The position numbers were made by a program, and so were the translations under genes. From assembly GCA_028288285.1 (NCBI GenBank), contig JAQBNZ010000239.1, forward strand, positions 1 to 50,893: 50,893 bases of DNA. Direction: 5' to 3'. This DNA is from Mucilaginibacter sp. Lineage in GTDB: Bacteria > Bacteroidota > Bacteroidia > Sphingobacteriales > Sphingobacteriaceae. Within the stretch, counting starts at the first letter, position 1, and each line of letters opens with the position of its first letter. The notes under the pieces are model-generated. The model saw nothing but the letters and a program-made list of their open reading frames with translations, was not told the DNA's origin and did no database searches. Below are positions 22,741-26,524 of this stretch, in pieces.

Positions 22741-23802
22741 TTATGCGCCGTTTTTTATGTGCTTTTCCAGTAATGTTATAAAGGCCAATTCTGCTGTTTG
22801 CTCCACAACCGAATTGCCAATAGCGCGGTGAAGGTCTTCTGTAAAGTTGTACCCATCAATTGTATAGACCATCCTGGATTCAATCGTGCGGGGTTCTTCC
22901 CATTCGTACTGAAAGCTTCCTTGCCCAGCAGGGAATAAACTTGCCTCGGAAGTTGATCGTTCCTGTCCTTTCCATCTTTCCTTTCTGCCGTCATTCCCGG
23001 GGTGTCCTTCCAGTATCGACTGGAAGGAGTTGTCCAAGATTGAATTGCATGTCCCAAATTCATCCCTATTCCGTTCCCGTTTATTTTCTTCAGGATCGCC
23101 TTCTCCTTTCTCTGCTGAAACATATCCAATGTTTGTTCCTGAATCATTGATGTAGGTGTAGGCCATGGAATTACTGCTGAATTCAAGTCTACTGTCCAAC
23201 CCTTCTCCACTTTCCTTTGATAATTCAAACTTCCCTGTAAATCCGGTGATCGATAATCCCTCGTTTGAGGTGTCGGCCACGTCAATAACTCTCTGTTCCA
23301 ATGAGGTGCCTGATCCCTTAACTTCACTTTCGCATTCGCTCCGCTTCGTATCTCCAAAATACCGCCCTCCCCGTCCGAGGATACCGGCGTTTTCCATAAT
23401 TCCGAAAATAAAGAGCCGCTCTCGTCTATGGGGTGCGCCAACTTCCTCCGCAGTAAAGATTCCTTCCTCAACTCGGTAACCAAGATTTGATATGCTTCTT
23501 CGTACTTCTCCATATCCCATTGATAAATGCCCTCCGACATTTTCAAAGAAAACCCAATCCGGTCCGATGATTTTAATCTGTTCCAATATATACGGGAAAA
23601 GGTGTCTTTCATCTTCAATACCATGTCGTTCTCCTGCGAGGCTAAACGGCTGGCATGGATATCCTCCAATGATTCCGTGTATTTTGTTACGAAATGGTCG
23701 TGCATCGAATGTTTTAACATTCGTCCAAATAGGTGCGGAATCCAGTAGACCAGCTTCCATTTGTCCAACCAGGTTTGCAATGATAAAGGCTTCGATTTCC
23801 AC
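22741..23802 (-). CDS. DNA cytosine-C5 methyltransferase, main part (interrupted gene)
   Basis: From the GTG at 23802 this 353-codon frame has most 5mC methyltransferase motifs: GGYPCQPFSLAG (motif IV with catalytic Cys), FFENVGGH (motif VI), APHRRERLFIFG (motif VIII) and AIGNSVVEQTAELA near the end (motif X). It lacks the SAM-binding motif I, which lies upstream in the same frame at 23839..23952 beyond an in-frame TAA. A GGGGAGG sequence follows that stop, so reinitiation is imaginable. A second frame (22776..23954) is open through the whole gene. It may be a split enzyme, a recoded gene or a dying one. Confidence 0.8.
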   Translation of the reverse strand: MEIEAFIIANLVGQMEAGLLDSAPIWTNVKTFDARPFRNKIHGIIGGYPCQPFSLAGERHGIEDERHLFPYILEQIKIIGPDWVFFENVGGHLSMGYGEVRRSISNLGYRVEEGIFTAEEVGAPHRRERLFIFGIMENAGILGRGGRYFGDTKRSECESEVKGSGTSLEQRVIDVADTSNEGLSITGFTGKFELSKESGEGLDSRLEFSSNSMAYTYINDSGTNIGYVSAEKGEGDPEENKRERNRDEFGTCNSILDNSFQSILEGHPGNDGRKERWKGQERSTSEASLFPAGQGSFQYEWEEPRTIESRMVYTIDGYNFTEDLHRAIGNSVVEQTAELAFITLLEKHIKNGA

Positions 23803-23954
23803 ATAAGCGATAACGTCAATCGCTTTTCCTCCCCGGAATTAAATATTCCAATCTGCTGTAATGGTTCGAATTGCTCTTTCAATACCTCTTTCGAGGCCAA
23901 GTATTCCGGGACATAAGCTGAGTACAGCTTGTGATTTGAAGGTATTATCCACAC
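22776..23954 (-). CDS. W-x-TP repeat protein overlapping the methyltransferase gene in another frame
   Basis: A 392-aa product with no stop, covering almost the whole methyltransferase in a shifted frame. It begins at ATG 23954, whose last base starts the methyltransferase GTG (ATGTG). It carries LMWKSKPLSLQTWLDKW (about 49-65), LWKTPVSSDGEGG, TWPTPQTRDY, PWPTPTS, SWTTPSSRYWKDTPGM and a closing LNPGWSIQLMG, a motif set I recall from phage proteins annotated as hypothetical or methyltransferase-associated. Its start overlaps the helicase-methyltransferase gene by ten bases. Function is unknown, but repeated motifs over 1.2 kb argue for real coding. Confidence 0.7.
   Translation of the reverse strand: MWIIPSNHKLYSAYVPEYLASKEVLKEQFEPLQQIGIFNSGEEKRLTLSLMWKSKPLSLQTWLDKWKLVYWIPHLFGRMLKHSMHDHFVTKYTESLEDIHASRLASQENDMVLKMKDTFSRIYWNRLKSSDRIGFSLKMSEGIYQWDMEKYEEAYQILVTELRKESLLRRKLAHPIDESGSLFSELWKTPVSSDGEGGILEIRSGANAKVKLRDQAPHWNRELLTWPTPQTRDYRSPDLQGSLNYQRKVEKGWTVDLNSAVIPWPTPTSMIQEQTLDMFQQRKEKAILKKINGNGIGMNLGHAIQSWTTPSSRYWKDTPGMTAERKDGKDRNDQLPRQVYSLLGKEAFSTNGKNPARLNPGWSIQLMGTTLQKTFTALLAIRLWSKQQNWPL
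23839..23952 (-). pseudogene. 5mC methyltransferase N-terminal fragment (motif I) before in-frame TAA
   Basis: A 37-codon stretch in the same frame as 22741..23802, starting at GTG 23952. It encodes AVLSLCPGILGLERGIERAI, which matches the SAM-binding N-terminus of phage 5mC methyltransferases, and stops at TAA 23841-23839. Downstream, IAYVEIEAFIIANL resumes the family sequence. One T-to-C change would restore the frame, and it would be silent (TTT to TTC, Phe) in the overlapping 392-codon frame. Confidence 0.75.
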
Positions 23955-26524
23955 ACTGCGCCCTCCATGTTAGATAAATCAAATAAGGTTGGTACATCTC
24001 TTTTCATCTCGGCCTCCTGGCAATACTTCACACCGTCTTTCCAATAAGCTTCATTTAATTCTGTAGCTATGGCACGCCTGTTAAGCTTTAAAGCACATCT
24101 GTAAGCTACTGTCATAATGCCGCCGAACGGGTCAAATACCAAATCATTTTCATTTGAGTACCTAATAACCGCCCTGTCCACAATATCAAACTGAAATGGG
24201 CAAACATGCTTTTCCTGTTTTTTCTTGGTTTGGCTGCTGTTCAGGGTGTGCATGCGGCTTACGTCTCCCCAAACCCATTCATTATTTGTATGGGTTGGCA
24301 CGGCCATAAAACCGGATGGTAGTTTGTCAATGCTGTCCAGCGTTTCAGATAGTTGAACATGCTTTTCAAAGTCATAAGGGTTATTAAGACAGTATTCTTT
24401 CCAAAGCTTCCCGATTTGGGAAAGGTCAAGCTTGCGTAACTCTTCCGGCTGAAATAAACGATTTCCGTTTGTCAGCCATTCCGCATGCGCATCTAATTGC
24501 CAGCGTCCCCGGCTGTAGGTCGGCTTTGGTTTTACTACCGGTATATCTGCATAAGCATTTGAAGTGTCAGTCGGCGCCTTTCTAAATACTAACAGATATT
24601 CAGGTGATCCGCTGCCCATCTTTGTGCCATCCTTGCTATTTTCGGTATATCCTAAACGGTAGGTTGATGCGTTTTCAGCGGCCACATCTGTTGGTATAAA
24701 GTGTTTACCCAATAAGAAGAAGCCGTGTTTCTTAAAGTGAGCAGAGGTTTCTCCGGCAAAGTCAATAAGGCTCGTAAAGCCTACGCCGTTCTGATAGCTA
24801 AACTGTATTCTATCTTTAACATGTATAGCTGCAATACGTCCCGGTTTTAATATTCTTAACAGTTCCGGTGTTAGCCAATCAAGCTGTTTAAAGAACTCCA
24901 CATTGCCGTTATTATGCCCCATGTCATGGTAGCTTTCGCAATATTCATACTGATCACTGAAAGGAATAGAAGTAAGAATCATGTCAATGCTATTATCTGC
25001 CATTTCCTGCGTTTCAATAACACAATCATTATGTATGGCTGTAAATCTTTTCCCTTTTACTTCTTTCCGGTCTACGCCAATTGTCCTAAGTAATTCAGCG
25101 GTTACATTCCCGTGCAAGCCGTATTTTCTGATCAAAGCAGCTTGTTTTGCAACCATGGAATTATGATCATTCCATTTCCGTAACAGGTCTTTTAAAATTT
25201 CCCGTTCCGCATCGGTATGGATAATATCTATTATCACACCATACTTTTGCATGAAGCGGAGTATCCTATGAATACTTTGGATAAAATCCTTAAACTTATA
25301 TCCTATGCCAACAAAGATGGCCCGGTGGCAATGGTGCTGAAAGTTACACCCGGATCCTGCAATAGTTGGCTTTGTTGCTAAATACTTGTATTCGCCTTTT
25401 TTAAAGCCTACCAGCAACTCCTCTTTTTGCTCACGCGTTTGTTTACCGTAAACTGATTTGCATTCGGGCAATAGCTTTTCTAACATCTTGCGCTCATCTT
25501 CCAGGTCATGCCATAATATAAAATGATCATCAGGGTTCTGTTTAACAATCTCCAGCGCCTTTTCTACCCTGCAATAAAGGCTGTCACGCTTTTCACGGCT
25601 ACTTTCTATAACTCCTTTACTTGGATTGGCAAACATGGCTACATTGCCGTCACGATCAGCTTTGATATCCCGTTCGCTTACATTTACCTCATGGTAGTTA
25701 ACGGTAAGCTCCGGCAGCTTATAACCGTCATCAGAATAACCTAAATCAGATGGAAATTGAATTGTTATTGACCAGCTGCGCACCCATAACCAAAATTCAT
25801 CTTCTTTATGCGGATACAGGGTAAGGTCCCCTGCAGTTGTGCTGTTACGCTGAAAGAACCTTGTTAACGCTTGGCCCCGGTCCATCACTCCCAAATATTG
25901 AGCGTAGTTTAATATTTCAGTATAATCATTTGGTGATGGGGTTGCTGTAGCTATGAATTTTAACGGGATGATGCTAAATTCTTTCATCATGTAATCTGTT
26001 GTTTCTGTATCCAGGTTACGGATAGCATCCCCCTCATCCAGTGAGGAAGCTCCAAAGTGTTTAGGGTCGAAATTACCCTCACGGATCCTTTCATAATTTG
26101 AAAGGAATATTTGAGGGCCTGTATTTTCTGATTCTATTTTCAGAACATCAGCCTGGCAGGTTACATAATGAACCTTTAGCCCTAATATTTCAGCTTCTTC
26201 GTAAAATTCTGTTACCACACCTAAAGGCAGGCCCTGCATAAAAGATTTGCCGGTATGTTGGATGGATAGTTTAGCTAACCATAATTGAATACGGGTTTTA
26301 CCTAATCCAAAGTTGTTGAAAATAGCCCTGCAACCTCCCTCGGCGGCAAATCTTATACTATCTGATTGATGTGGTTTTAAATGAGGGCTTAAATCTCCTA
26401 AAGGAACTGAAAAGCCAGTCTTTGGGGTATTTATAATTTTGTTTTTAATACACTCGTCAATATATGCCCGTGTTTTTGGGTTTTTATATTTTAAAGAGGG
26501 GTCGGTGTTGAATGTTGCTATCAC
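23945..26524 (-). CDS. SNF2-type helicase fused to a DNA methyltransferase
   Basis: An 859-aa two-domain protein. The N-terminal helicase has Walker A FGLGKT (72-77), motif II LDEGD (162-166), motif III ATATPSPND (192-200), and motif VI QSIHRILRF (416-424; normally QxxGRxxR). The C-terminal amino-methyltransferase has a SIPF motif IV (about 519-522, in place of SPPY) before a SAM-binding DPFGG (798-802), an order like beta-class N4/N6 enzymes. The fusion resembles phage helicase-methylases such as the P1 DarB type. It may modify or protect phage DNA. Confidence 0.85.
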   Translation of the reverse strand: MIATFNTDPSLKYKNPKTRAYIDECIKNKIINTPKTGFSVPLGDLSPHLKPHQSDSIRFAAEGGCRAIFNNFGLGKTRIQLWLAKLSIQHTGKSFMQGLPLGVVTEFYEEAEILGLKVHYVTCQADVLKIESENTGPQIFLSNYERIREGNFDPKHFGASSLDEGDAIRNLDTETTDYMMKEFSIIPLKFIATATPSPNDYTEILNYAQYLGVMDRGQALTRFFQRNSTTAGDLTLYPHKEDEFWLWVRSWSITIQFPSDLGYSDDGYKLPELTVNYHEVNVSERDIKADRDGNVAMFANPSKGVIESSREKRDSLYCRVEKALEIVKQNPDDHFILWHDLEDERKMLEKLLPECKSVYGKQTREQKEELLVGFKKGEYKYLATKPTIAGSGCNFQHHCHRAIFVGIGYKFKDFIQSIHRILRFMQKYGVIIDIIHTDAEREILKDLLRKWNDHNSMVAKQAALIRKYGLHGNVTAELLRTIGVDRKEVKGKRFTAIHNDCVIETQEMADNSIDMILTSIPFSDQYEYCESYHDMGHNNGNVEFFKQLDWLTPELLRILKPGRIAAIHVKDRIQFSYQNGVGFTSLIDFAGETSAHFKKHGFFLLGKHFIPTDVAAENASTYRLGYTENSKDGTKMGSGSPEYLLVFRKAPTDTSNAYADIPVVKPKPTYSRGRWQLDAHAEWLTNGNRLFQPEELRKLDLSQIGKLWKEYCLNNPYDFEKHVQLSETLDSIDKLPSGFMAVPTHTNNEWVWGDVSRMHTLNSSQTKKKQEKHVCPFQFDIVDRAVIRYSNENDLVFDPFGGIMTVAYRCALKLNRRAIATELNEAYWKDGVKYCQEAEMKRDVPTLFDLSNMEGAVCG

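Follow-up and report, generated by a model that had tools for sequence, protein, structure and literature searches.

An overlapping gene pair in a Mucilaginibacter phage or prophage that very probably encodes two subunits of one cytosine methyltransferase

Two overlapping frames, alpha and beta, located on the minus strand of a 50,893-nucleotide contig of Mucilaginibacter sp. (JAQBNZ010000239.1, here called the window), very probably specify two subunits that make up a single phage C5-cytosine DNA methyltransferase, the domains of which are laid out in overlapping frames. The features behind this reading were computed directly: the overlap is conserved, selection acts in both frames, labour is divided between them at motif VIII, motif IX occurs only in beta, modules are swapped, and split variants exist in nature. 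The first-pass annotation of the window had proposed a genuine overlapping gene pair, and this is borne out by a beta frame that is open in 430 of 430 loci and under purifying selection. What it had not seen is that these two real genes are better understood as two subunits of one enzyme than as unrelated proteins.

The locus in the window

The window contains portal, terminase, tape measure and integrase genes and is, by this gene content, a prophage or phage. Its alpha frame (22741-23802, 353 codons) carries the motifs PCQ, ENV, RRERLF and GNSVV, and its beta frame (22776-23954, 392 codons) carries four W-x-TP blocks and the motif LNPGWSIQLMG; both lie on the minus strand and are simultaneously open across 22776-23802, that is, over 1,027 nt. 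When the codons of alpha were shuffled among synonyms, the beta frame held a mean of 8.1 stops, and not one of 200 shuffles left it open, which excludes that it is open by chance. The gene upstream (23945-26524), a helicase fused to an N6/N4 methylase, has a stop that overlaps the starts of alpha and beta. The features of the locus are the following:

23945..26524, minus strand: gene upstream of the pair, a fusion of a helicase with an N6/N4 DNA methylase (PF01555, 2.8e-14; phrog_16, 9e-106)
23962..23966, minus strand: GGAGG, Shine-Dalgarno-like, 7 nt ahead of the beta start and 9 nt ahead of the alpha start
23842..23952, minus strand: alpha frame preceding the stop, with start GTG at 23952 and motif I
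23884-23922, minus strand: alpha motif I, LSLCPGILGLERG, upstream of the rest of alpha and in the same frame
23839..23841, minus strand: in-frame TAA interrupting alpha, in a variable loop that separates motif I from motifs II/III
22741..23838, minus strand: alpha frame past the in-frame stop, motifs II-VIII and X (PF00145, 2.5e-28); candidate restart GTG at 23802
23644..23667, minus strand: alpha motif IV, GGYPCQPF, with the catalytic Cys
23536..23550, minus strand: alpha motif VI, FFENV
23410..23430, minus strand: alpha motif VIII, HRRERLF
22804..22824, minus strand: alpha motif X, AIGNSVV
22776..23954, minus strand: beta ORF, 392 codons, GTG start at 23954, W-x-TP modules and motif IX (phrog_1008, 4e-13); proposed target-recognition subunit
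23280..23396, minus strand: beta module 1 (WKTPVSSDGEGGILEIRSGANAKVKLRDQ...), 61% identity to a module of Microcystis phage Mae-JY24
23166..23279, minus strand: beta module 2 (WPTPQTRDYRSPDLQG...VDLNSAV), 53% identity to a module of locus L094
23037..23165, minus strand: beta module 3 (WPTPTSMIQEQTLDMF...GMNLGHAIQS), 40% identity to a module of locus L002
22884..23036, minus strand: beta module 4 (WTTPSSRYWKDTPGMTAERKDGKDRNDQLPRQVY...), 74% identity to modules of epsilon15-like phages
22833..22883, minus strand: beta motif IX, LNPGWSIQLMGTTLQKT, a motif absent from alpha

The start pair proposed in the first-pass annotation, ATGTG at 23800-23804, is present but is not the best one; the twin start GTGTG, in which the GTG of beta (23954) and the GTG of alpha (23952) stand 7 and 9 nt behind GGAGG, is the better candidate. 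Of 97 loci in the window's clade, 93 retain an NTG ahead of W-I-x-P despite a variable alpha residue preceding it (N, D, H or Y), as would be expected of a beta start codon. Raw counts of Shine-Dalgarno sequences at the twin start were not above those of a control stretch, and therefore only the conservation of the start codon was used as evidence.

The alpha motifs noticed earlier were correctly seen, but motif I, which lies upstream beyond the TAA, had been missed. This stop separates motif I from the remaining alpha motifs, and beta reads through it intact. The relatives L002, L003, L004, L005 and L023 have no stop at this site, and L003 has a similar loop insertion, again without a stop. 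The stop in the window's alpha may be a recent nonsense mutation, an error of assembly or the result of some other cause, and this copy of the methyltransferase may be inactive because of the in-frame TAA after motif I. Close relatives of the pair were found in none of 200 related genomes, and divergent alpha/beta pairs are present in genomes of the same genus and the same class. In one locus of the window's genus (L018), a Vsr-like endonuclease ORF (2334-2759) adjoins the pair, which suggests a restriction-modification setting.

Conservation of the overlap and selection on both frames

The sample comprised 430 fetched beta loci, a few of them duplicates, drawn from phage records, plasmids, viral contigs and GTDB genomes, the latter belonging to Bacillota, Bacteroidota, Pseudomonadota, Actinoplanes, Treponema, Nitrospirales and others. 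Two loci were excluded from the evidence: L109, whose frames are broken in several places, possibly by assembly errors, and L170, which has an insert. In the latter, from a Synergistaceae MAG (1143-2643), an HNH-like insert lies between motifs II and IV of the methyltransferase gene, and the frame changes.

In all 430 loci, beta overlaps a same-strand alpha ORF in the same relative frame, with a median overlap of 884 nt in the first ~100 loci. The checks suggested in the first-pass annotation came out in favour of the gene pair: homologues of the 392-codon frame contain no free stops, beta being open over alpha in 430/430, the W-x-TP protein never occurs without the methyltransferase among these loci, and purifying selection is found in the beta frame. 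Across loci, synonymous shuffling of alpha gives an expectation of 4.6-4.9 stops in the beta frame, where there are none, and the third frame over alpha holds 17 stops.

Selection was measured by counting changes according to their effect on each frame, in a simplified form of the OLGenie approach based on Jukes-Cantor, over 142 pairs (118 kb) that are disjoint and not fully independent. For these 142 pairs, the dNN/dNS of beta is 0.50 (0.46-0.54), and in four separate groups beta lies at 0.30-0.56. The controls are higher: a pseudo-frame taken from neighbouring genes reaches 0.82 (0.75-0.88), and the third frame 1.31. Both frames of the pair are thus under purifying selection beyond that of the control frames. 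Upstream of motif VIII, constraint is strong on alpha (0.19) and weak on beta (0.60), while downstream of it beta is at 0.42 (0.37-0.47) versus 0.755 (0.72-0.80) for alpha, which is near the non-coding baseline. The first ~185 codons of beta largely echo the conserved motifs of alpha, and the conservation of this N-terminal half is mostly passive, because it resembles the +1 translation of ordinary, canonical methyltransferases.

Division of domains, module array and natural variants

Ordinary C5 methyltransferases are single chains in which the small domain that reads the DNA sits as an insert within the catalytic domain, between motifs VIII and X. Of motifs I-X, alpha lacks only IX, and in the window it matches the Pfam family PF00145 (DNA_methylase) at 2.5e-28. 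By motifs I, IV, VI, VIII and X and a large-domain fold, alpha can be assigned to the C5-cytosine DNA methyltransferases, with the window's motif I cut off by the TAA and the fold predicted from the relative L005. In the AlphaFold model of this intact relative, motifs I-VIII and X have pLDDT >90, and the large domain (residues 9-172) and the motif X helix (320-350) are both confident; residues 177-317 are mostly below pLDDT 50 and have no secondary structure. The model matches M.HhaI with Z 22 over ~196 of 327 residues, and by sequence the alignment of alpha is limited to motifs IV-VIII. Alpha thus lacks a small domain, given that the region between VIII and X is predicted to be disordered, the match to M.HhaI is partial and only motifs IV-VIII align. 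What defines a single-chain enzyme, a motif IX and a folded small domain that lie in the same frame between VIII and X, is lacking in alpha.

Beta ends in L-N-P-x-W-V-x-x-L-M-G-x-P, a pattern spaced like canonical motif IX, L-T-P-R-E-C-x-R-L-Q-G-F-P. Judged by this pattern, beta most likely supplies the motif IX that alpha lacks, and probably target recognition as well. All 80 betas tested are matched by phrog_1008, a search of the same number against Pfam and NCBIfam gave no family, and a comparison of beta with known methyltransferase C-termini gave no significant homology (Pfam none). A PDB profile search with beta returned a sole match, to Cullin-2, which was rejected as a chance match, as were the crystallins returned by the profile of natural beta-motif X fusions. 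With the latter profile, motif IX weakly matched the plant DNA methyltransferase 4onq (E 0.23). When beta was modelled by itself, AlphaFold gave a poor structure (mean pLDDT 62), for which Foldseek found no match below E 0.001; the matches were left unused because of the low confidence of the model. Given the poor model and the lack of a structural match, the case for recognition by the modules rests on position, swapping and selection.

Between the N-terminal part of beta and motif IX lie one to six W-x-TP units, which amount to 947 modules in 142 clusters, with a median length of 40 aa, and which are conserved in the beta frame across phyla. Modules that are 65-85% identical occur on scaffolds that are only 28-36% identical, as in L186, from the MAG of a gut bacterium, and the viral contig L270 (module 78%, scaffold 28%). 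Conversely, scaffolds 98% identical can carry entirely different module sets (L006/L275 and L350/L360), and at least one unit differs in 1,196 of the 1,353 scaffold pairs above 85%. In position, size and exchange, the modules behave as would be expected of target-recognition cassettes.

The relation of beta to the enzyme can also be seen in canonical methyltransferases and natural variants. Among 80 loci found with canonical methyltransferases, motif IX is in frame in 72 and a full beta is present in none; among 80 found with alpha, motif IX is in the alpha frame in none and beta with motif IX is in +1 in 71, the rest being variants or truncated contigs. In-frame motif IX and beta are mutually exclusive. 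In seven loci (L034, L039, L064, L099, L157, L297 and L305), the beta frame continues into motif X, and such fusions, as read from their motifs, tie beta to the enzyme directly. In L157, L297, L305 and mycobacteriophage Nyxis, alpha ends shortly past motif VIII, and beta consists of modules, IX and X.

Several phage records bear on the same loci. In Nyxis (L430, 1006-2101), gp78 and gp77, both annotated as DNA methyltransferase, correspond to the split into alpha and beta with motif X, with a 26-nt overlap, and several further mycobacteriophage records have the same pair of annotations. In Paenibacillus phage Lily (L432, 1676-2167), gp63 is annotated as 'g62 internal gene', so that the alpha/beta pair had already been noticed by annotators. 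In Streptococcus phage P0095 (L433, 1160-1579), gp51, annotated as DNA methyltransferase, lies inside gp50 and has neither W-x-TP nor motif IX; from its sequence, it resembles a shadow ORF in the +1 frame of a canonical enzyme. In phage N15, the beta ORF that goes with gp58 carries no annotation, and the N15 methylase region had no match in E. coli genomes.

Known systems, proposed enzyme and alternatives

In the methyltransferase M.EcoHK31I, the beta gene overlaps the alpha gene in another frame. This C5 enzyme (YGGCCR) has motifs I-VIII and X on its large subunit and motif IX on a separate, smaller polypeptide (PMC3404938). Compared by motif layout, the window and its relatives appear to be split in the same way. 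M.EcoHK31I is one bacterial restriction-modification enzyme, whose target-recognition domain is assigned to the large subunit, whereas the loci described here number in the hundreds, from phages, prophages and bacteria, and target recognition would fall to beta and its variable array of modules. The natural two-subunit C5 methyltransferase M.AquI is divided into one part with I-VIII and another with the variable region, IX and X, a division nearly matched by L157, L297, L305 and Nyxis gp78/gp77; unlike M.AquI, the window and most relatives have motif X on alpha and genes that overlap almost completely.

The recognition domains of Bacillus phage methyltransferases are similar in size to the ~40 aa modules described here. 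The phages SPR, phi3T and H2 have multispecific C5 methyltransferases with tandem target-recognition domains (PMC8936443). These enzymes are single chains in one frame, whereas the array here lies in a second, overlapping frame; the likeness drawn here is one of layout. The tandem, exchangeable ~40-aa modules between motifs VIII and IX that mark multispecific methyltransferases can be recognised in beta as well. The beta family corresponds to phrog_1008, or 'Mte8-like protein' (Kagunavirus K1ind1 gp33 and K1ind2 ORF28), whose members go by no other name than 'DNA methyltransferase' or 'Mte8-like'; in some records, both of the overlapping ORFs are annotated. A literature search found no paper on a phage overlap of this kind or on the module array. 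The arrangement, called little-studied in the first-pass annotation, is indeed little discussed, but both ORFs are already annotated in some phage records.

In the proposed enzyme, for which we infer expression of two proteins, their assembly, recognition by modules, multispecificity and protection from restriction, alpha would be the catalytic large domain, with SAM binding, the PCQ cysteine, ENV and the returning motif X helix, and its VIII-X stretch would be an unstructured linker whose main requirement is to stay open. Beta would be the small DNA-reading domain, with motif IX after a row of ~40-residue W-x-TP modules, and through the overlap each structural domain would be a polypeptide of its own, with one piece of DNA serving both. 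Alpha and beta would both be translated from the twin start NTGTG (in the window's clade), and beta would dock onto alpha to form the active enzyme. The individual modules are probably target-recognition cassettes, and therefore beta arrays would confer multispecificity and protect phage DNA from host restriction. The likely benefit would be phage DNA shielded from several restriction enzymes by cassettes that are changed through recombination.

Along the DNA, motifs I-VIII in the alpha frame, modules and IX in the beta frame and X in the alpha frame follow the order of an ordinary enzyme, and in L157, L297, L305 and Nyxis one +1 shift would complete the chain; programmed frameshifting, into the beta frame after VIII and back before X, could thus be imagined to yield a single-chain methyltransferase. 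We regard this as improbable: the common form would need two shifts, the alpha frame is open through the VIII-X stretch in almost every locus, although frameshifting has no need of this, beta has a start codon of its own, conserved in the clade tested, and M.EcoHK31I is active as two polypeptides (PMC3404938). It is very doubtful that alpha is a complete methyltransferase and beta a separate overlapping protein, be it a regulator, an anti-restriction protein or something unrelated. Alpha by itself does match Pfam DNA_methylase, but it has neither motif IX nor a folded small domain, and beta has motif IX, is never found without alpha and, in several relatives, forms a fusion with motif X; canonical enzymes have no beta. 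Hardly credible is a beta frame that is a non-coding shadow held open by the composition of alpha; although its N-terminal half does resemble the +1 frame of canonical methyltransferases, beta is more constrained than alpha past motif VIII, its modules are kept in the beta frame across phyla, and 0 stops are found where 4.6-4.9 are expected.

Beyond the two-subunit enzyme itself, we consider it likely that a large class of phage and bacterial methyltransferases, spanning phyla and mostly hidden by annotation, keeps its recognition domains as shuffling cassettes in an overlapping +1 frame, with one W-x-TP module (~40 residues) per DNA sequence and an array that passes from one phage to another, unrelated one as a unit for evading host restriction. 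If this is true, hundreds of genes annotated as 'DNA cytosine methyltransferase' would be two genes each, and Pfam and NCBIfam, and in many cases annotation too, would lack the part that sets their specificity. The target sequences of phage methyltransferases would become readable from module types. The pair would also be a clear case of an overlap that is maintained because an inserted domain has to form a chain of its own, and the origin and upkeep of overlapping genes would become testable module by module, in many independent replicates.
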